A stretch of 64,000 nt of DNA from Kutzneria kofuensis. GTDB lineage: Bacteria > Actinomycetota > Actinomycetes > Mycobacteriales > Pseudonocardiaceae. The notes under the pieces were generated by a model. It was not told the origin of the DNA. It did not search any database and saw nothing but the letters and a program-made list of their open reading frames with translations. The stretch is taken from assembly GCF_014203355.1 (NCBI RefSeq), contig NZ_JACHIR010000001.1:2358038-2422037 (forward strand). The letters are read 5' to 3'. A program made the position numbers and the translations under genes. Positions 22,821 to 33,402 of the stretch are shown piece after piece (position 1 is the stretch's first letter; each line of letters begins with the position of its first letter).

Positions 22821-22894
<74 letters not shown>

Positions 22895-22959: not shown

Positions 22960-24135
22960 TTACTCTGCGGTTCCATTCACCGCTTTCTCTAGCGCCTCAG
23001 CGCCAATGCGACTCACCGTACGCCTACCCATGTAGACGTCCTGAGTCATCGACGGCCGCGCGTGGCCGAGGATGTCAGCGATCTGACGCGCCGTCAGCCC
23101 CGCGTCGTCGAGCAGGGTCGCCACCGTCTTGCGGAACGTCCGGAAGGTCACCCAGCCGTAGCCGGCCCGCTCCGCGAAGGGCTTCCACGCCCGGTTGCGC
23201 ACGTTGGACGCCTCCCGGATGGTGCCCGTAGTACTGGGGAAAATCGGCCCAGCCAGGTTCGTCACGGCCGCCCGCCGCTCGATCAGCATCGCGCAACACC
23301 AGTCCGCCAGCGGGATCGGACGCTGAGCGTTCTCCGTCTTCCCCCGGTTGAGGATCTTCCCCTTGCCCCGAGCGCGAATGACGTTGCCCTGCATGGTGAG
23401 GGTCTTCCCCGCGTCGTCGAAGTCGGGCCAGTGCGCGCCCAACGCCTCGCCGGTCCGCTCCCCCGTCGCCAGGAACAGCCGCACCAGGTCCGGCAAGTCG
23501 TCCCGCCGGGCCTGCTCGTCAGCGTCGAGTTTGGCGAGCAGGTCAAGCACCTGGTCCCCGGTGAGCGCACGCGACTTGGCCGGCTGGTTGCGCGCCTTCT
23601 TGCTCTCCAACGGCCCGACCTCACGCACCGGGTTCGTGTCGAGGGCACCGTGCCGAACGGCCAGCCCGCAGACGCCCGAGAGGATCGACCGCACCGTCTT
23701 GGCCGAACTGGCGCTCGACTCATCGCGGACACGCTTGCACAGCTTGTCGAGGATCGGGGTCTTGACCTCGAACATCCGCAGTTCGCCGACGGCCGGGATG
23801 ACGATCCCTTCCAGGCGGCTCCGGTAGGTGTCCACCGTGCCCCACGAACGGGCCTCCCGCTCTGCATCGTGCTCAACCTCTTTGAGCCACAGGGCAGCAG
23901 CGTCCTTGAACCTCGTGTTGGAGGTCACCTCGGCCCCACCGGACGGCGTCGCCCAGTCACGTAGTGCCTGTCTCAGCCGACGTTCGGCCTCGGGGCCGGT
24001 CACCCCGTACCGCTCGACGGGGTAGATCTTGCCGTCAAAGTCCCTGTAACGGCACCGCGCCCGGTACTTCTTCGCCCCCTGCCTGTAAACCGTGATCTTG
24101 CCGAAGGTGCCCAACGGCAGCGGTGGACGCGGCAT
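22960..24135 (-). CDS. int: Tyrosine-type site-specific integrase of the AICE
   Basis: 391 residues. An N-terminal arm-binding region (about 1-75), a SAM-like core-binding domain (about 80-185) and the catalytic domain (about 200-370) are visible. Box I Arg lies in LATGERTGEALGAHW. The box II segment reads TFRTFRKTVATLLDDAGLTA, with Arg kept but the usual first His replaced, as in many AICE integrases. LGHA supplies the next His and DVYMGR the nucleophile Tyr. The start (ATG, GGGGGAGAGCTG upstream) overlaps the excisionase stop by 1 nt (TGATG), so both are co-translated. Confidence 0.93.
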   Translation of the reverse strand: MPRPPLPLGTFGKITVYRQGAKKYRARCRYRDFDGKIYPVERYGVTGPEAERRLRQALRDWATPSGGAEVTSNTRFKDAAALWLKEVEHDAEREARSWGTVDTYRSRLEGIVIPAVGELRMFEVKTPILDKLCKRVRDESSASSAKTVRSILSGVCGLAVRHGALDTNPVREVGPLESKKARNQPAKSRALTGDQVLDLLAKLDADEQARRDDLPDLVRLFLATGERTGEALGAHWPDFDDAGKTLTMQGNVIRARGKGKILNRGKTENAQRPIPLADWCCAMLIERRAAVTNLAGPIFPSTTGTIREASNVRNRAWKPFAERAGYGWVTFRTFRKTVATLLDDAGLTARQIADILGHARPSMTQDVYMGRRTVSRIGAEALEKAVNGTAE

Positions 24136-24335
24136 CAGCTCTCCCCCAACGACTTGAACCACTCACGGACGCCGTCCGGCTCGTAGCGGACGTACTTGCC
24201 AACCTTCGTACCCTTGGGACCGAACCCCTTGCGCCGCCACTGGTACAACGTCTGCACAGGGATGCCCAGGAAGGTAGCCACATCCACAACAGTCCATAGT
24301 GGAGCTATCTTTGCGTTGGCAGACATTCCGCTCAC
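24135..24335 (-). CDS. xis: Excisionase / MerR-like helix-turn-helix protein
   Basis: 66 residues with a winged-helix DNA-binding fold of the excisionase type: WTVVDVATFLGIPVQTLYQW followed by RRKGFGPKGTKVGKYVRYEP and VREWF. It directs the integrase toward excision by bending att DNA. The GTG start at 24335 overlaps the RepSA stop; ATG at 24326 is an alternative. It is coupled upstream to rep and downstream to int. Confidence 0.88.
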   Translation of the reverse strand: MSGMSANAKIAPLWTVVDVATFLGIPVQTLYQWRRKGFGPKGTKVGKYVRYEPDGVREWFKSLGES

Positions 24336-25720
24336 ATCCCTTCGTGTTCGTCGTGCTCGGTCTCGTACTGGTCGGCGCGGCGCATTGCGCGTTCGGCCTT
24401 GGTTCGCTCCCAGAACGCGGCGGCCAGCTCAGCCGCTACCGGGGACACGTGTCCCACGGCGGTGAAGCGCCAATCGTTGACCACCAGCACCGTGTCCGGG
24501 TCGTCGACACCCAGCCGGGCCAGGGTCTGCGCCCGCTGGTAGTCGGCCTGATCCCCCCGGATCCGCTTGAACGTGGTGGAGTACTTCCGCGACTTGGTCA
24601 GGAAGTGGCCCCGGAAGCCCAGCATGTGCGCCCAGCGGCGAAGCTTGAGATCCGCGTACTGCGGCAGGCCGCCGAGGTTCCACGCCATCTGAATCATGCG
24701 GCGGTGGTGCTCGGAGATCCCGGTCAGGTTGTCGATGTCCAACTGCGAGCGGAACCGGCGGTCACCGCCGGCCGTCGTGCCGGTCGACTTGGTGGCGTAC
24801 TTGGCGATGTAACCCGCGATCGCCGCCTCGGACACCGTGCCGTCCGCATCCTCGAACTGGCCCGCCAGCCGGGCCGTGATCGGCCGCACGTCCACCTGTG
24901 GCCCGAACTGGACCGTCATCTCCGCCCCGGACGGCCGGTCGATCGAGACGCCAGCCTCAGCGGCGGCCAGGCGGACGCAGTCCTCCAGCAGTGAGGCGGT
25001 CACCCAGGCGGGGCGGGGGCTGTCCGGGCCGGTCGGGCCGTCGACCCGGATCACCACGTGGAAGTGCACCATGCCCCGCGCCTGGTACTCGGCGACCTTG
25101 GCGTAGGACACGCGGGCGTGCTCGCGGAACTCGCTGACCTTGATTCCCTGGCGGGCGGCCATGATCCGGGCGACGCGTTCGGTGAACTTGTGCCACAACG
25201 CGCCCGCCATCGCGTGCCACAGCACAGCGCCGACGTAGTCGTAGGTGTCCGGGTCGATCGGGGTGGACAGGATCGGGTCATCCGGGTGATGCCACGCCCC
25301 GCAGCCGCAGGGCTTGCGATTGCCCCGCGCGGTCAGCCCGCCCGAGTGGACCTTGCCGAAGCTGGGGGCGGTGACCGTGACGAACAGCCGGGGCGTGTCC
25401 CGCACGGTCAGCGGGACATCTTTCTCGCCACCGGCCAGGCCGGCGCGGATCAGGTGGAACGCGTCGGCGGCGTACCGGTCGGCGCAGGCCGGGCAGATCG
25501 CGGCCCGTCGGGTGCCGCAGGGCACCATCAGCGTTCCGGCCGTCAGGGTCCGCAGCACCGGGCGTCCATCGGCGGTCTTGTCGTGCAGCACCGTGCGGCC
25601 GGCGAGGTGGATCGGGTGGGCGCAGCCCTTGGCGGAGGCCACTCGCTCACGCCACGCGCCGAACCCTGCCTTGCCGATGAACGCGGCGTACCGGTCGGTG
25701 TCCACAGTGGTTGGTGACAT
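24332..25720 (-). CDS. repSA: RepSA-like rolling-circle replication initiator
   Basis: 462 residues, normal length for the AICE RepSA family. Cys pairs AICPACADRY (about 75-84) and KPCGCGAWHH (about 136-145) form a probable zinc site. GMVHFHVVIRVDG (about 214-226) carries the H-x-H metal motif of HUH nucleases, and conserved Tyr residues near LQFEDADG...YIAKYATK may include the nicking Tyr. It would nick its own origin to start excised-circle replication. ATG preceded by AAAGGAG. It overlaps xis, so rep-xis-int form one operon. Confidence 0.9.
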   Translation of the reverse strand: MSPTTVDTDRYAAFIGKAGFGAWRERVASAKGCAHPIHLAGRTVLHDKTADGRPVLRTLTAGTLMVPCGTRRAAICPACADRYAADAFHLIRAGLAGGEKDVPLTVRDTPRLFVTVTAPSFGKVHSGGLTARGNRKPCGCGAWHHPDDPILSTPIDPDTYDYVGAVLWHAMAGALWHKFTERVARIMAARQGIKVSEFREHARVSYAKVAEYQARGMVHFHVVIRVDGPTGPDSPRPAWVTASLLEDCVRLAAAEAGVSIDRPSGAEMTVQFGPQVDVRPITARLAGQFEDADGTVSEAAIAGYIAKYATKSTGTTAGGDRRFRSQLDIDNLTGISEHHRRMIQMAWNLGGLPQYADLKLRRWAHMLGFRGHFLTKSRKYSTTFKRIRGDQADYQRAQTLARLGVDDPDTVLVVNDWRFTAVGHVSPVAAELAAAFWERTKAERAMRRADQYETEHDEHEGM

Positions 25721-27532: not shown

Positions 27533-27904
27533 TCAGGCCGCCTTACCGTCGAGGTTGGACACGGCCACCGGGTGGTGGTCGCGGGTGGTGGGGTGGTGGA
27601 TCAGTCGCCGATCGGCGGGGGTCAGGCCACCGACGACGCCGTGCAGGTAGCGGGTCGCCGCCGGGTAGCCGGCCTCCCACTCGATTTGCTCGGTGGCGCA
27701 CTGGCGTTGCACCGGGCAGGCCGAGCAGATCCGCCGGGCCTGATCGCGGGAGCGGGCGGTCTCCGCGTCGAACACGCGCGGGTCCGTGTCGCGGCAGGCC
27801 CGATCCTGGCGCCACACCCCCTGTGCGCCGGTAGCGCCGAACAGGGCCACCGACAGGGCACGCGCACCCGTCCGCAGCCCCTGAGCGCGGTCACGGTCGT
27901 TCAT
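27533..27904 (-). CDS. WhiB-like (Wbl) iron-sulfur protein on the AICE
   Basis: 123 residues. Four Cys residues at about 37, 60, 63 and 69 (ACRDTDPRVF, then ICSACPVQRQC) follow the C-xn-C-x2-C-x5-C pattern that binds a [4Fe-4S] cluster. HGVVGGLTPADRR matches the G-[VI]-W-G-G turn and helix, with Val in place of Trp. Wbl proteins act with the primary sigma factor in gene control or redox sensing. ATG overlaps the upstream stop (ATGA). Confidence 0.82.
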   Translation of the reverse strand: MNDRDRAQGLRTGARALSVALFGATGAQGVWRQDRACRDTDPRVFDAETARSRDQARRICSACPVQRQCATEQIEWEAGYPAATRYLHGVVGGLTPADRRLIHHPTTRDHHPVAVSNLDGKAA

Positions 27905-28386
27905 GCCGCCACCCCCGCCACCATGCCCGCAGCGCCGCGAAACCGGGACACCGCAGCCAGGTCGCCGGTCAGGGCGTCGACATCGACCAGGGTCGTCGGG
28001 CGGACGGTGCCCACCGGCAGCCGGTAGCCCAGCACGTAGGCGGTGTTCTCCGTCGCGACGAGCACCCCGCCCAGGCACGCGATGTCCGCGCCGGCCGACA
28101 CGATCACCCCGGTCCCATCCGCCAGCTGACCGGCGATCGTGACGACCAGGTGCCGATTCGGCAGCACCAGCCATGTGACGTGCACCCCGTGCAGGGAGCG
28201 GCCCCAGGCCACCGCACGGTGCAGGCGGGCGCGTTCCTCTCCGGTGCCGAAGCTCAGCTGCACCGTGCGCGACAGCGTGGACATCGTGATGCCGATCGGC
28301 CGGGGCAGGTGGTTCGCGCGCAGGTGCGCCCGCAGCTTGGTCAACATCCGGTCCAACACCCGCGACTCACGCTTGACTGTGTTCAT
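27901..28386 (-). CDS. AICE hypothetical protein
   Basis: 161 residues, MNTVKRESRVLDRMLTKLRA onward; basic helical N-terminus, then beta-rich text (VHVTWLVLPNRHLVVTIAGQ, GVIVSAGADIACLGGVLVAT). No membrane segment or family recognised. It starts 77 nt downstream of the first tRNA-like RNA and overlaps the WhiB-like gene by 4 nt. The start could also be GTG at 28398. Confidence 0.65.
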   Translation of the reverse strand: MNTVKRESRVLDRMLTKLRAHLRANHLPRPIGITMSTLSRTVQLSFGTGEERARLHRAVAWGRSLHGVHVTWLVLPNRHLVVTIAGQLADGTGVIVSAGADIACLGGVLVATENTAYVLGYRLPVGTVRPTTLVDVDALTGDLAAVSRFRGAAGMVAGVAA

Positions 28387-28462
28387 GACACGTGACACCT
28401 CACTTTCTGTTTGGATACGAACGACAGTGGTGATGCGGCTCCCGCCTCTGGCGGAGTTGCCG

Positions 28463-28522
28463 TGGTGCTCGTGGCCCGACTCGAACGGGCAGCCCCACCA
28501 CGTTCTCCTGGGGGGCACGAGC
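28463..28522 (-). ncRNA. Minimal tRNA-like RNA, copy 1 (with encoded CCA)
   Basis: Read on the - strand: 7-bp acceptor GCTCGTG/CACGAGC, T arm GCCCG-TTCGAGT-CGGGC, then A and an encoded CCA. Between the acceptor and T arm there is no D or anticodon arm, only a 25-nt segment folding as CCCCCCA/TGGtGGGG with a bulged T and a GAGAA-containing loop. It begins 17 nt after the traB stop and lies 77 nt before the next start. A second copy at 32011-32066 shows the same fold with compensatory changes, which supports a real RNA structure. Candidate RNase P/RNase Z processing signal or tRNA mimic. Confidence 0.62.
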
Positions 28523-28539
28523 GGTTGTGGTATCAGCGG

Positions 28540-29958
28540 TTAGGCGGCGCGGAGCCGGCGGTCCGGATGCGGACGCCCGGTCACGAACTCCACCAGCTCG
28601 TGCACGTCGGTGCTGGAGGTGTAGGCCGCGCGCACCATACGGGCGGACTTCTTGGTTTCCTGCTTGAGGTAGCCGACGCCGTCGAACTCTTCGGTGGCCG
28701 GAATCTGGTCGGCAATCGCGCCGTTCTCCCGGGCACCCTCCCCCAGCAGCATGTCCGGCTGCGTGGCCGAGTTGACCCGCAGACAGATCTTGTTCGGGAT
28801 CAGGTCCCGGAAAGGCAGCACGTCCTTGTTCGGGTCCACCGAGGTGATGATCATCGCGTGATGGGTGGTGCGGCCCATCGACACCACCTTGGAGATGAAC
28901 GCGTTGATGTGGCCGGCCTCCAACGACGTGGTGAACGCGGTCAGCGACGCGACCTCATCGACGATCATCAGGTTGAGCGGAAACTCCTTGGAGATCGGCG
29001 CTTCCCGCACACCCATGCGGCTCATGCGCATCTGGGTGTCTTCCATGTCGGCGATGTAGCGCTCCATGAGCGGCGGGATGTCGGTGTCTCCGGTGTCCTC
29101 GTCCTTGGTGCCGTCCGCATACCGGCCGCCCAGCATCGGCACCAGCTGCTTGAACTCCAGCTTCTTCGGGTCGATCACCCACAGCTTGACCAGCCCGTCA
29201 CGGATCATTGGCGCGAGCGAGCGCAGCGGGGCGAACACCCAGGAGTTCTTGCCCGACCCGGTCGCGCCGCCGATCAACAGGAACGACTGCTTGCCGACCA
29301 GCGACAGGTAGACGGGCTGCCCGAACTCGTCCTCACCCACGTACAGCCGGGCCGGATCCACCTCACGGGAATCCTGCGGCATCTCCGGGGCGGGAATGGT
29401 CTCGGTGAACGGCATCGACCGCTGCACGATCATCGCGATCCGGCCGCGCTGAAGCGGCTCGAACGCCACCCGCTCCACCCGCAGCGACGCCGCGATCTGC
29501 TCGCCGCGTTCGGTGAACGTGCGCAGCGACTGGCCGCGCACCGGAGCCAGGTGCACCACATCCACATGCTGGCTGCGGCACCGGATCGACACGACCCGGG
29601 GGTACTGGACGATGCCCTTGCGGCGGTGCTCCTTGTCCAACCCGACCGAGTCGCACAGGTCCCGCCACCGCACACCCACGTAGTCCTGTGTCCAGCGGCG
29701 GCGCAGCGCCCGCAGCACCGGGGCCACGTGCACGTCGAAGGTGTCCGGGTGCGCCCGGTAGTGCACGCCCAATCCGGTGAGCACGCCACCGACCACACTG
29801 GCCGTGATCGTCGGGGCCACCACCGCACCGGCCGCCAGCGCCGTGGGAATCGTGACCATCTCGGGGTGCCGCGCCGACCAGCGCAGCGCCCGCCACTCCA
29901 CGCCCGCCGACCGCTTCGAGCCAGCCACGTTCACGTTGGTGTTGTTCCGCTTGCTCAT
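28540..29958 (-). CDS. traB: TraB/FtsK-SpoIIIE-type conjugative DNA translocase
   Basis: 472 residues. One or two hydrophobic stretches (about 36-65) anchor it in the membrane. Walker A is GGATGSGKNS (about 230-239) and Walker B LMIVDEVASL (about 320). The C-terminal region has DLIPNKICLRVNSATQPDML, typical of FtsK/SpoIIIE-like motors. In AICEs one hexameric TraB pumps double-stranded DNA between mycelia. The ATG has AAAGGATG 7 nt upstream. It is followed by a tRNA-like RNA on the same strand. Confidence 0.92.
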   Translation of the reverse strand: MSKRNNTNVNVAGSKRSAGVEWRALRWSARHPEMVTIPTALAAGAVVAPTITASVVGGVLTGLGVHYRAHPDTFDVHVAPVLRALRRRWTQDYVGVRWRDLCDSVGLDKEHRRKGIVQYPRVVSIRCRSQHVDVVHLAPVRGQSLRTFTERGEQIAASLRVERVAFEPLQRGRIAMIVQRSMPFTETIPAPEMPQDSREVDPARLYVGEDEFGQPVYLSLVGKQSFLLIGGATGSGKNSWVFAPLRSLAPMIRDGLVKLWVIDPKKLEFKQLVPMLGGRYADGTKDEDTGDTDIPPLMERYIADMEDTQMRMSRMGVREAPISKEFPLNLMIVDEVASLTAFTTSLEAGHINAFISKVVSMGRTTHHAMIITSVDPNKDVLPFRDLIPNKICLRVNSATQPDMLLGEGARENGAIADQIPATEEFDGVGYLKQETKKSARMVRAAYTSSTDVHELVEFVTGRPHPDRRLRAA

Positions 29959-30075
29959 GATCAGCATCCTTTCTACGCGTGTCCTATGTGGAGTCGTCAC
30001 GCTCCCGCCGACCCACCACCCACCGCGAGGGCAGGTGATGAGCCAGCGCCAACATGCGACCTACGCCGGTAGGGG

Positions 30076-30255
30076 CTATTCGGTGACCCGCGCCCGCGCC
30101 CACCGCAGCTCGGTGTGCAGGTCCGCGACCAGCCGGGCCAACAGCTTGTGTTGCGCCCGCAGCGAGCCCTTCTTGTCCGGCATCCCGCGCACCGCGCGGT
30201 TGAGGTTCATCATGGACTGGGCCATCCCCTGAATTTCGATGTCGATCAGCGCCAT
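30076..30255 (-). CDS. 59-residue helical AICE protein
   Basis: Reads MALIDIEIQGMAQSMMNLNR, AVRGMPDKKGSLRAQHKLLA, RLVADLHTELRWARARVTE; probably all helical, possibly coiled coil, with no membrane segment. The ATG is 1 nt after the stop of the 93-residue gene (TGACATG), so it is translationally linked. Codon bias is normal. Function unknown; it lies just upstream of traB (117-nt gap). Confidence 0.65.
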   Translation of the reverse strand: MALIDIEIQGMAQSMMNLNRAVRGMPDKKGSLRAQHKLLARLVADLHTELRWARARVTE

Positions 30256-30256
30256 G

Positions 30257-30538
30257 TCACACCGTCCATTCCGTCGTCGTCAGCTCCGTCTCACGCTTCT
30301 TGCACTCTTCGGTGAAGTCGACCAAGCCCGCGCGGATCATCCCGATCCGCTTCAGCAACTCGTCCGGCGTGGCCATCTTGTAGGTGCGGCCCTTCTTCCC
30401 CTTGTCCATGGCCTTGATGTGCTTCTCCACCCGGGGCAGCGTGCCGACCAGCACCTCCACGCAGGTCACCAGTTCCCCGTACTTCCGCTTGGCCCGCTCG
30501 TTGACAGCGGTGGCCACAACACCACTCACACTCGCCAT
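30257..30538 (-). CDS. AICE hypothetical protein, helical and basic
   Basis: 93 residues: MASVSGVVATAVNERAKRKY, then ELVTCVEVLVGTLPRVEKHI, KAMDKGKKGRTYKMATPDEL and a charged C-terminus. Predicted mostly helix, Lys-rich, cytoplasmic. No family recognised. It sits in the row of tightly packed small genes (gap of 2 nt upstream, 1 nt downstream) typical of AICE conjugation operons. Confidence 0.65.
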   Translation of the reverse strand: MASVSGVVATAVNERAKRKYGELVTCVEVLVGTLPRVEKHIKAMDKGKKGRTYKMATPDELLKRIGMIRAGLVDFTEECKKRETELTTTEWTV

Positions 30539-30540
30539 GG

Positions 30541-30864
30541 TCAGTTCTCCTCATCCTGTTGAGCACTCGCGAAGTCGAGCGCGATAACTCCTTCGTAGGT
30601 CAGCACGAGAGGCGCGCCCAGGACCGTCGAACCATCGACCTTTAAGAGCTGATACGGCTTGTCCTTCTCGACCAAGCCCTTCCGCAGCAGCAAGGTCGCA
30701 AGGAACGTGCGGTAGACCGGCGCAACCTCCGCCGTCCGGCAATCTTCGTTCAACAGCAGCAGCCGCGACCCACCCATGAAGTACCAATCCTTGCGCACCT
30801 CAGCCAGGAAGTCCCTTTCCGAGTCCGTAATCCGATCGCCGAACGAGGTCTCACTCCTGGTCAT
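30541..30864 (-). CDS. AICE hypothetical protein
   Basis: 107 residues, beginning MTRSETSFGDRITDSERDFL; alpha/beta mix with SRLLLLNEDCRTAEVAPVYR and a beta-rich C-terminal half (GSTVLGAPLVLTYEGVIALD). Overlaps the upstream gene stop by 4 nt. No motif recognised and no membrane segment. Confidence 0.65.
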   Translation of the reverse strand: MTRSETSFGDRITDSERDFLAEVRKDWYFMGGSRLLLLNEDCRTAEVAPVYRTFLATLLLRKGLVEKDKPYQLLKVDGSTVLGAPLVLTYEGVIALDFASAQQDEEN

Positions 30865-31250
30865 GCCGCTCCCTTCCCCTTGCCATGCAACGGCTTGAGC
30901 GCCTTCCAGCGAACCAACTGGTTCCGGGTCGCCCTAGGCACCAGGACCGATTGACAGGGCTTGCGCCCGTGACGGGTGTCCATCCACTTCTGTGCGCCGA
31001 CCTTGAGCAGCGACGAGCGGATCAGGTCGTGCACCACGGCCGCCTCCCAGAAGATGCACGGCGTCAGACGCTTGTCCTCCCGCAACCGGTGGGGCTGACC
31101 GGTCGGGCCGACCAGTACGTACCCGTCGTCGCCCATAGCCCGCTCCAACACCTTGATCACGGTGTCCATGTTGTTGCCCGGCTTGACCTTCGGGGCTGGA
31201 GCAGGCGCAGGCTGGGCCGGCAGCTCATTGCCGAACAGGTCCTCACTCAC
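30861..31250 (-). CDS. AICE hypothetical protein with Pro/Ala-rich N-terminus
   Basis: 129 residues. N-terminal linker SEDLFGNELPAQPAPAPAPK, then a compact domain (NNMDTVIKVLERAMGDDGYV, PCIFWEAAVVHDLIRSSLLK) ending basic (KPLHGKGKGAA). Start taken at GTG 31250, which has GAGGGG 8 nt upstream and overlaps the preceding stop by 8 nt. The SEDLFGNE opening resembles an N-terminal clamp-binding or partner-docking peptide, but this is speculative. Confidence 0.62.
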   Translation of the reverse strand: MSEDLFGNELPAQPAPAPAPKVKPGNNMDTVIKVLERAMGDDGYVLVGPTGQPHRLREDKRLTPCIFWEAAVVHDLIRSSLLKVGAQKWMDTRHGRKPCQSVLVPRATRNQLVRWKALKPLHGKGKGAA

Positions 31251-31473
31251 CGCGATCACCCCTCATCGAGTCGCACACCGCGTTCGCCCACTCGATCAGC
31301 GTCGGGTCGTCCATCTCCAGCACCGACACGGCCAAAGCCACTTCCTGCAGCGCCGTCGCCCTGCCTTGCTTGCTGCGCATGAGTTCCGGCCAACCGTCGA
31401 CGACGCGACCCAGCGCCGACCGCAAGTAGCCCCGGGCGAAGTGCGTTGCCTCGTTGGCGTCGTTGACGATCAC
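31243..31473 (-). CDS. AICE hypothetical protein
   Basis: 76 residues, helical: MIVNDANEATHFARGYLRSA, LGRVVDGWPELMRSKQGRAT, ALQEVALAVSVLEMDDPTLI, EWANAVCDSMRG. GTG start overlaps the upstream stop (GTGA). No known family. Packed between two other small genes in the leftward operon. Confidence 0.6.
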   Translation of the reverse strand: MIVNDANEATHFARGYLRSALGRVVDGWPELMRSKQGRATALQEVALAVSVLEMDDPTLIEWANAVCDSMRGDRGE

Positions 31474-31733
31474 GCCGCATCACCGCCGTAGGGCCACAAC
31501 TGCGACCAGTCCACCGAGTCGACGTCGCCGTAGACCGAGGGCGGCGACACCGCCGGCATGTCCCGCGTCCACTCATCGGTCAGGCCATCGACCACACGCA
31601 GCGCGAGCCGGCCTGACGTAGCGCCCATGCACTGCGCTGCCGACACCGTGCGGCCGGCGACCACCTTGTTACCCCACACGGTCGTCAACGTCCCAGCGAC
31701 CGCGTACGGGCCCTTACCCTTGCGTCGTGCCAT
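31470..31733 (-). CDS. AICE hypothetical protein, first gene after tRNA-like copy 2
   Basis: 87 residues from MARRKGKGPYAVAGTLTTVW; basic start, then beta-rich (NKVVAGRTVSAAQCMGATSG) and an acidic aromatic tail (VYGDVDSVDWSQLWPYGG). ATG with AAGGGAGAG 9 nt upstream. It begins a block of seven tightly spaced genes running to traB and is separated from the upstream gene by a 342-nt gap that contains the second tRNA-like RNA. Confidence 0.62.
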   Translation of the reverse strand: MARRKGKGPYAVAGTLTTVWGNKVVAGRTVSAAQCMGATSGRLALRVVDGLTDEWTRDMPAVSPPSVYGDVDSVDWSQLWPYGGDAA

Positions 31734-32010
31734 GGTTGTGCTCTCCCTTGTTGTCACGGAAACCACGGCGCGACCCCCACCAATGTTGGCTGGGGATCCA
31801 CCGTCACTCCCGGCACCCACACGGGGCGTCCGAGCGAGCACCACGCCGGCCTCTGACGAAGCGACCGGGGGTACCTGGCATCTGCTCACGTGGCCGATTC
31901 AGGCATGGCTCTATCCACTGTGGAATTGACTGAAGAACACGCAGTCGCGATCCGGGTCGCCAACCAGGGCGATTACGGCGTCTGTGCCCACCGGCTTTCG
32001 CTGCCTACCG

Positions 32011-32066
32011 TGCCCGTGGCCCGACTCGAACAGGCCGCCCCACCAACTTCTCTTGGGGGCACGGGC
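32011..32066 (-). ncRNA. Minimal tRNA-like RNA, copy 2
   Basis: On the - strand: acceptor GCCCGTG/CACGGGC, T arm GCCTG-TTCGAGT-CGGGC, discriminator A, followed by CGG rather than CCA. A 24-nt insert folds as CCCCCAA/TTGGtGGGG with the same bulged T and a GAGAA loop as copy 1. It starts 9 nt after the stop codon of the 137-residue gene. Differences from copy 1 keep pairing (acceptor pair 3 is T-A there, C-G here; T-stem pair 4 C-G there, T-G here). Confidence 0.6.
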
Positions 32067-32075
32067 GAAAGCTTG

Positions 32076-32489
32076 TTACGCCGCCATCTGCGGTGACGCC
32101 GCGACCAGCGACAGGGAGTCGATCCGCCACGCGAAGTCAGCGCCCCGCAGGTGCCCCATCCGGGCGCAGTCGCTGTCAGTGACCTTGCTGGTCTTCAGCG
32201 TGACCCGCACGCCGTTCAGAGCGACCATCGCGCCCTGCGTCACCCCCGGAGCGGGCTCGGCCAGCAGGTCAGCACGGATCGGGATCGGCAGCGGCGACCA
32301 GTCGCTGTCCGGACGGGGCCGCTCCATCAGGACCAGGTCCACCGTGTACTTGATCGCCTTGGTCTGCCAGTCCTTCATGGGCTCGCTGTTGCCCTGCTCG
32401 TCCGGGCGCGTCATGGCCATCTTCGGGGCCTGGGCAACGATCACCGTGTACTCGCTCATGTCCACCATCAACTTGGGGGCCTGTGCCAT
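32076..32489 (-). CDS. SCO3933-like AICE regulatory protein
   Basis: 137 residues. The pattern YTVIVAQAPKMAMTRPDEQG, WQTKAIKYTVDLVLMERPRP, then GAMVALNGVRVTLKTS and FAWRIDSLSL resembles the beta-rich proteins found next to the KorSA-type regulator in SLP1-like elements. First gene of the leftward operon and divergent from the GntR repressor, with shared operators between them. Exact role unknown. Assignment rests on layout and general similarity. Confidence 0.55.
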   Translation of the reverse strand: MAQAPKLMVDMSEYTVIVAQAPKMAMTRPDEQGNSEPMKDWQTKAIKYTVDLVLMERPRPDSDWSPLPIPIRADLLAEPAPGVTQGAMVALNGVRVTLKTSKVTDSDCARMGHLRGADFAWRIDSLSLVAASPQMAA

Positions 32490-32637: not shown

Positions 32638-33402
32638 ATGAGCACGGGCTACCGAGAGCTTGCAGACGAGCTACGCGATGCCATCCGGCGAGGGGTGTAC
32701 CCGCCCGGAACGACGCTGCCCAAGCAGGAGGAGCTAGCGGCGGAGCATGGCGTCAACATCAACACCGTGCGGAAGGCAGTTGCCAGCCTAGAAGCCGAAG
32801 GACTTGTAACCCCAGTTCGGCGTCGCGGCACCGTGGTACGCGAACGACCGCCGATGAAGCGTCTCGGCATCGAGCGGTACGCCAAGAGCAAGTGGAAGTA
32901 CGGACTGGTGGCCTTCGCGGCCGACCGAGAAGCCTCGGGCCGCGACTGGAAGCGCGGCGACCAGACCAACAAGGTCCGCAAGGTCCGCGCGGACAGCAAG
33001 GTTGCCGAGGCGTTGAGCATGAAGCCTGGCGATGTCGTCTACGAACGCGCGCGGCTCGTCAAGGACGGCGACACGCCGACCCACACGCTCACTAGCTACT
33101 ACAACCCTGCACACGTAGAAGGCACGCCGCTGGTTGACCCGAAGCCAGGGCCAGCAACTCCGGGTGGCGGCTTCGCCGTCCTCACCTTGCAGGGGTTCGA
33201 GCCTGACCACATGGTTGAGAGCTTTCACGCGAGGATGCCCGAGCGGGAGGAGATCGAGACGCTTGCCCTACCTGCCGGCGAACCCGTGATGATCCTCGAA
33301 CGTCGTACGTTCACCAAGGACGGTACGCCGATCGAGTTCGCTCTCGGGGTCCACGCTGCCAGCAGGTTCGAGTGGTCGTACAGCTTCCAGCTTCCAGAGT
33401 GA
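32638..33402 (+). CDS. GntR/HutC-family repressor (KorSA-like) of the AICE
   Basis: 254 residues. N-terminal winged helix (about 8-72): YRELADELRDAIRRGVYPPG, KQEELAAEHGVNINTVRKAV, LEAEGLVTPVRRRGTVV. C-terminal UTRA effector domain (about 95-250), ending FEWSYSFQLPE. ATG preceded by GAGGAGG. In pSAM2 the homologous KorSA keeps the element integrated by repressing its activator, and the paired 15-bp repeats just upstream would serve that role here. Confidence 0.9.
   Translation: MSTGYRELADELRDAIRRGVYPPGTTLPKQEELAAEHGVNINTVRKAVASLEAEGLVTPVRRRGTVVRERPPMKRLGIERYAKSKWKYGLVAFAADREASGRDWKRGDQTNKVRKVRADSKVAEALSMKPGDVVYERARLVKDGDTPTHTLTSYYNPAHVEGTPLVDPKPGPATPGGGFAVLTLQGFEPDHMVESFHARMPEREEIETLALPAGEPVMILERRTFTKDGTPIEFALGVHAASRFEWSYSFQLPE

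Follow-up and report, generated by a model that had tools for sequence, protein, structure and literature searches.

What do tRNA-like RNAs do within a messenger RNA? The question is raised by a mobile element of the actinomycete Kutzneria kofuensis, in whose transfer operon two short copies of such an RNA stand behind stop codons. The stretch of DNA that was analysed, called the window here, comprises 64,000 nucleotides (nt) of contig NZ_JACHIR010000001.1 (assembly GCF_014203355.1, forward strand, positions 2,358,038 to 2,422,037). Judging by its integrase, RepSA, TraB and GntR regulator, the element is an actinomycete integrative and conjugative element (AICE) of the pSAM2 type. An initial annotation had placed copy 1 after traB and copy 2 after a gene further upstream; both exist as placed, copy 2 reaching from 32066 to 32008 when its tail is included, and not to 32011. 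The answer that we favour, at a probability of roughly 55%, is that copy 2 would belong to a cis-acting antitermination leader of the rRNA type, with the tRNA-like unit in the place of boxB.

The RNA family and its fold

Both copies belong to a conserved RNA family without a match in Rfam. A pattern search found two further copies, the one from a second host AICE and the other from a sister species, and these together with the window copies made up a first covariance model (R1). At E ≤ 0.01, 33 of 297 genomes of the same family had R1 matches, 42 in all. By sequence and context 27 of them were counted as the element, with AICE proteins near 26; of the remaining 15, eleven were inspected and look like chance matches (those at L023 and L030 are ambiguous). 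The second host AICE (L041) holds two copies and the AICE of the sister species (L042) three. A second model of 25 sequences (R2) was run against 250 genomes from the family of one Micromonospora genome; 30 of these had matches at E ≤ 0.01, 35 in all, of which 15 were inspected. Seven of the eight matches of at least 53 bits are among these, all with TraB nearby and with a boxA-like block that begins about 95–103 nt from the 5' end of the element (four located by regular expression, three by eye). The others are four elements with U56 in the T-loop (L255, L257, L258, L260), three tRNA genes and one ambiguous match (L256). Class-wide, R2 matched five of 393 genomes: the host's own and G038 are real, two matches are tRNA genes, and G597 is without an AICE match. 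Plasmid and phage collections gave no match to the element, and Rfam at E ≤ 5 gave no family at the elements of L050 and L042. The prediction that covariance-supported homologues would turn up next to traB and to korSA-region genes of other AICEs was borne out, and the unit is found both in AICEs of Pseudonocardiaceae and in those of a Micromonospora genome group.

Some single loci deserve mention. A 59-bit R1 match (L043:9892-9948, genome G111) has no recognised AICE protein within 20 kb; its neighbours are, by eye, NUDIX-like, HD-like and HTH-like open reading frames (ORFs). A U56-type element at about position 1500 of L257 (G726) has neither TraB nor a clear boxA in its vicinity. In L255, L258 and L260 the ORF that precedes the U56 element resembles, by eye, the small ORF in front of the L041 element (LMVTEAPELK vs LMIVEAPEMK), and tblastn with TraB found no match in these three loci.

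Since it combines acceptor stem, D-arm, T-arm and elbow features, we read the RNA from its sequence as a tRNA that lacks the anticodon arm. The likeness to tRNA proposed at the outset is supported, and both window copies have the 7-bp acceptor, the 5-bp T-stem, the TTCGAGT loop and the discriminator A described there, with an encoded CCA (as ACCA) in copy 1 only. The hairpin that had been taken for a replacement of the D-arm is the D-arm itself, only the anticodon arm being missing, and its bulged T and GAGAA loop are particular to the window copies and absent as family traits. The differences between the copies (mean column identity of 85% in the alignment) do preserve pairing, in agreement with the proposed selection on RNA structure, and the fold z-scores against dinucleotide shuffles are −3.30 for copy 1 and −2.20 for copy 2. 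In an alignment of 25 sequences, itself fitted to the model, both sides are changed in nine of 17 pairs, and 97.8% of the cells pair, compared to at most 52.5% in slid controls. The acceptor takes 14 forms among 37 distinct elements and is mostly 6 bp long in the boxA-linked ones, with G1–C72 almost invariant. The middle hairpin usually starts 1 nt past the acceptor, has a stem of 3–5 bp (6 in one element) whose third pair is CG, GC, AT, TA or TG across 35 elements, and leaves 2 nt to the T-arm; G–U pairs are used in the fold. The acceptor abuts the T-stem, which varies as GCCCG/CGGGC, ACCCG/CGGGT, ATCCG/CGGAT, GTCCA/TGGAC and GCCGG/CCGGC, and the T-loop is TTCGAGT in 43 of 46 boxA-linked elements. 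Strict tRNA mimicry is disfavoured by 1–2 extra nt on the 5' side of the T-arm in 20 of the 46.

The predicted elbow includes the D-loop/T-loop contact G19–C56. The D-loop ends in GGN in 43 of 44 distinct boxA-linked C56 elements, compared to the 10.2 expected from 500 rounds of shuffled D-loops (standard deviation 2.7, maximum 20). It is the position that counts, GG anywhere in the D-loop being weak evidence (34 of 35 vs 28.1 by shuffling). The elements with a U56 T-loop end in GAN (three of three distinct elements, from four loci and about two lineages), as if A19–U56 stood for the tertiary pair G19–C56; the association has a Fisher p of 0.00025, a value that ignores relatedness and depends on a classifier that tries GGN first. 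The loop AGTTGGTA of L146 is a textbook D-loop.

The boxA-like block, its spacing and its distribution

A block like TGTTCTTTGAGAATTCCACAGTGGGCCGATCCATGCC, missed by the initial annotation, lies downstream of the leader-type copies. Its core is also present in the leader and in the 16S–23S spacer of all three rRNA (rrn) operons of the host, and the spacer version TTGTTCTTTGAGAACTACACAGTGGAT is one base off the block of L041. From this match we take the block to be a boxA; in sequence it appears to be one as in the host rrn operons, weakly so in the window copy. A search with the rrn-type pattern gave 25 matches, with 1 and 1 in the controls. The AICE block pattern was found in 95 of the 297 family genomes, with no reversed-pattern match among the matches listed, and class-wide in three of 296 genomes (the host's own and two matches with three mismatches; one for the reversed control).

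Of 86 distinct block sites, 75 have AICE proteins nearby, the window being counted as its own. A strict rule recognises the tRNA-like unit upstream at 40 of the 86 sites, and in five more (L025, L036, L038, L117, L148) it is visible by eye. The same rule found no unit in downstream windows, on the reverse strand or in 1720 mononucleotide shuffles (20 for each site), which keep base composition only. The figure of 40 is biased upwards because 23 of the 86 sites came from matches to the RNA model or as AICEs of the host's own genome; among the 63 sites found by the block alone, 39 of them from hand-picked regions of the pattern-search matches, 22 pass the strict rule and two more do so by eye. 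From the acceptor end to the matched block pattern the distance is 17–21 nt in 34 of the 40 and 73–84 nt in six; in two of these six (L137 and L141) a tandem second unit stands between by eye, at most 160 nt upstream of the block. The gap on the other side is looser: the window copies start 17 nt after the stop codon of traB and 9 nt after that of the upstream small ORF, as had been described, and in 40 elements elsewhere it is 6–74 nt, with a median of 20.

Sites without the unit often carry another hairpin, AAGCC...GGCT, by eye. Two other AICEs of the host (L082, L083) have the boxA/boxC block with such a short hairpin where the unit would stand. Downstream, an extended hairpin covaries, with both-sided changes in 13 of 15 predicted pairs (35 sequences).

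Among RepSA relatives from named genomes, the 80 best of at least 588 were taken: 41 loci of Streptomyces or Kitasatospora, 2 of Glycomyces and 37 others, one a Micromonospora and the rest mostly Pseudonocardiaceae. Several of them are contigs that the genome searches had already covered. Nine of the 37 have the unit and 26 the block, which the AICE pattern matches in 24 and only the rrn-like pattern in 2; all nine loci with the unit also carry the block. The 43 loci of Streptomyces, Kitasatospora and Glycomyces have neither, with the exception of a 4-mismatch, opposite-strand match to a looser pattern in one Glycomyces locus; five Streptomyces contigs are shorter than 7 kb and might not include the leader.

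Sixteen further host sites with TTTGACAAYTCCACAG[CG]G stand at about position 1500 of L060–L064 and L067–L077, after similar gene ends; in L063 and L072 the motif begins 9–10 nt past the stop codon of a DUF222 gene. A boxA-like block may serve another multicopy gene family. A T-arm-like stretch, GAGTTCAAACC, was also seen by eye in the host's own 16S–23S spacer.

Proposed antitermination and its rivals

In the AICE transfer operon, copy 2 and its relatives would supply the structured upstream half of a cis-acting antitermination leader. After passing the first small gene, the transcript would fold the anticodon-less tRNA, complete with acceptor, D-arm, T-arm and elbow, and then expose the single-stranded boxA/boxC-type block. 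NusB–NusE(S10) and other Nus factors could load on this block while the tRNA-like unit served as a docking surface or shield, and RNA polymerase could then resist Rho and other terminators through traB and repSA. The unit probably helps the polymerase to read through the AICE transfer genes. Fold, covariation, position, spacing, the match to the boxA of the host rrn operons and the alternative hairpins are directly supported, and from them we infer everything functional, that is, Nus binding, antitermination and a role of the tRNA shape. Precedent is given by canT of Tn916, a cis-acting RNA antiterminator (PMC11658703), and by the antitermination systems of conjugation operons (PMC8955417).

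Several observations speak against antitermination. The core of the window's boxA, TTCAGTC, is divergent: the AICE block pattern matches it at 31902–31927 with two mismatches, and the stricter rrn-type pattern misses it. At 46 of the 86 block sites the strict rule fails (by eye, the unit is there at five of them), and the unit is therefore dispensable for the block. A uniformly placed terminator was not found, and results for terminators after boxA are mixed. The stand-alone copies have no boxA, copy 1 having none within 200 nt downstream. Besides, boxA need not mean antitermination, because the boxA of Escherichia coli suhB serves repression with Rho, a case of Nus regulation outside rRNA (PMC5725501).

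The stand-alone copies end in ACCA, and those after traB were seen only in the host's genus. If the leader acts in antitermination, they would be duplicated derivatives that provide another loading site or serve as processing or stability elements. In a bolder version, which we think less likely than not, the anticodon-less tRNA would be the antitermination RNA in its own right: elbow and acceptor stack would dock on the transcription complex (S10/Nus or RNA polymerase), and the boxA-free ACCA copies after traB would act as independent antiterminators at intervals along the operon.

The initial annotation had thought of tRNA punctuation, in which RNase P, with RNase Z or exonucleases, would cut the polycistronic mRNA and leave stable structured ends. 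This is a serious rival because RNase P measures the elbow and the acceptor/T stack (PMC4919913). R73 and C74 in 46 of 46 boxA-linked elements, the constancy of G1–C72 and the ACCA of the stand-alone copies agree with it. However, U75 takes the place of C75 in 41 of the 46, so that the end is not RCCA, the acceptor is mostly one of 6 bp and the extra T-arm nucleotides recur. Moreover, the near-fixed distance to boxA speaks against cutting, and so do the many AICEs in which the unit is lacking and replaceable. Overall we think punctuation unlikely: it is the poorer fit for most members, and could hold for the stand-alone ACCA copies.

Still less probable is that the unit mimics a tRNA to attract a tRNA-binding factor (a modification enzyme, the CCA-adding enzyme, EF-Tu or the ribosome) and so controls how stable the transfer mRNA is or how it is translated, independently of boxA. 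The conserved elbow and the existence of copies without boxA are what such a mimic would explain; the spacing to boxA remains unaccounted for, and the freely variable acceptor sequence argues against a specific synthetase.

The clt regions of some Streptomyces plasmids follow traB, where copy 1 also lies, and GACCCGGA, presumably a TraB repeat, occurs once near copy 2; a DNA-level site (for TraB recognition, clt-like, or for recombination) with an incidental RNA fold is nonetheless very improbable, given that GACCCGGA is scattered 11 times over the window, that the fold obeys tRNA rules including the loop–loop change and uses G–U pairs, and that the unit is in sense orientation in nine named loci. 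A chance fold is ruled out by the covariance matches and the covariation, an ordinary tRNA or att remnant by ARAGORN and Rfam, which report just tRNA-Leu and tRNA-Lys in the window and nothing at the two copies, devoid of an anticodon arm, and stop-codon read-through by the next in-frame stop, which is scattered in 40 boxA-linked elements and sometimes precedes the element.

Known systems and the layout of the window

The proposed leader resembles boxB-boxA-boxC of rrn operons, the site of the Nus complex, in having a hairpin upstream of a block nearly identical to the host's spacer boxA; it differs in belonging to the transfer operon of a mobile element and in that its hairpin is an anticodon-less tRNA fold. 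In lambda nut and HK022 put, a cis hairpin with boxA, or structured RNA alone, alters RNA polymerase; for the AICE leader no N-like protein was identified, and the fold is tRNA-like. The tRNA-like domain of tmRNA, viral tRNA-like structures and mascRNA have the upper half of a tRNA without a normal anticodon arm. The AICE unit shares this upper half (acceptor, T-arm, D-loop), but it has 46–60 nt, lies within mRNA, is tied to boxA and forms a three-way junction without any anticodon arm. While boxA and tRNA-like RNAs are each known, we know of neither their combination nor a selected tRNA fold without anticodon arm elsewhere. Among the titles and abstract openings listed from the open-licence literature, none describes a tRNA-like RNA or boxA antitermination in AICEs. 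The family may have been overlooked because unit and AICE block were not found in the 41 Streptomyces/Kitasatospora RepSA loci. With canT and other antitermination systems of Gram-positive conjugation operons the leader would share the setting, a structured cis RNA proposed near the start of the transfer operon of an integrative and conjugative element; canT is, however, 452 nt long, from another phylum and of demonstrated function (PMC11658703).

AICEs of Pseudonocardiaceae, and those of a Micromonospora group, thus gain a structured RNA family, and this suggests that these elements borrow a host signal of the rRNA type to transcribe their transfer genes. If the anticodon-less tRNA were the antitermination RNA, a mobile element would be disguising its transfer mRNA as the transcript of a stable RNA. 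A selected fold without anticodon arm would separate the elbow and acceptor functions of tRNA from decoding, and we think it could serve as a compact natural RNA in recognition studies of RNase P, tRNA-modifying enzymes and Nus factors.

Table 1. Coordinates of the AICE genes, tRNA-like copies and boxA/boxC-like block in the window
Feature	Position	Strand	Basis or remark
tRNA-Lys	22821-22894		ARAGORN; adjoins integrase
Integrase	22960..24162	-	protein-domain match
RepSA	24332..25720	-	protein-domain match
tRNA-like copy 1, after traB	28463..28522	-	covariance match
Copy 1 tail ACCA	28463-28466	-	
Copy 1 acceptor	28516-28522 paired with 28467-28473	-	
Copy 1 T-arm	28474-28490	-	
Copy 1 D-arm region	28491-28515	-	
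traB (FtsK/SpoIIIE domain)	28540..30000	-	protein-domain match
boxA/boxC-like block GTTCTTCAGTCAATTCCACAGTGGATAGAGCCATGCC	31902..31940	-	pattern match
tRNA-like copy 2, after small ORF	32008..32066 (tail included)	-	covariance match
Copy 2 tail ACGG	32008-32011	-	
Copy 2 acceptor	32060-32066 paired with 32012-32018	-	
Copy 2 T-arm	32019-32035	-	
Copy 2 D-arm region	32036-32059	-	
Small ORF upstream of copy 2	32076..32489	-	ORF
GntR/UTRA regulator (KorSA-like)	32638..33402	+	protein-domain match

The small ORF upstream of copy 2, labelled SCO3933-like in the initial annotation, has no match in Pfam or NCBIfam, and its 137-residue product, used as a query, found no relative among the named genomes. 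Frame sharing across the element, which is not so in L041 and L042 copy 2, was observed at copy 1: traB and the next gene (27901–30000, minus strand) are in one frame with a single TAA between them, and this frame is open across the copy.

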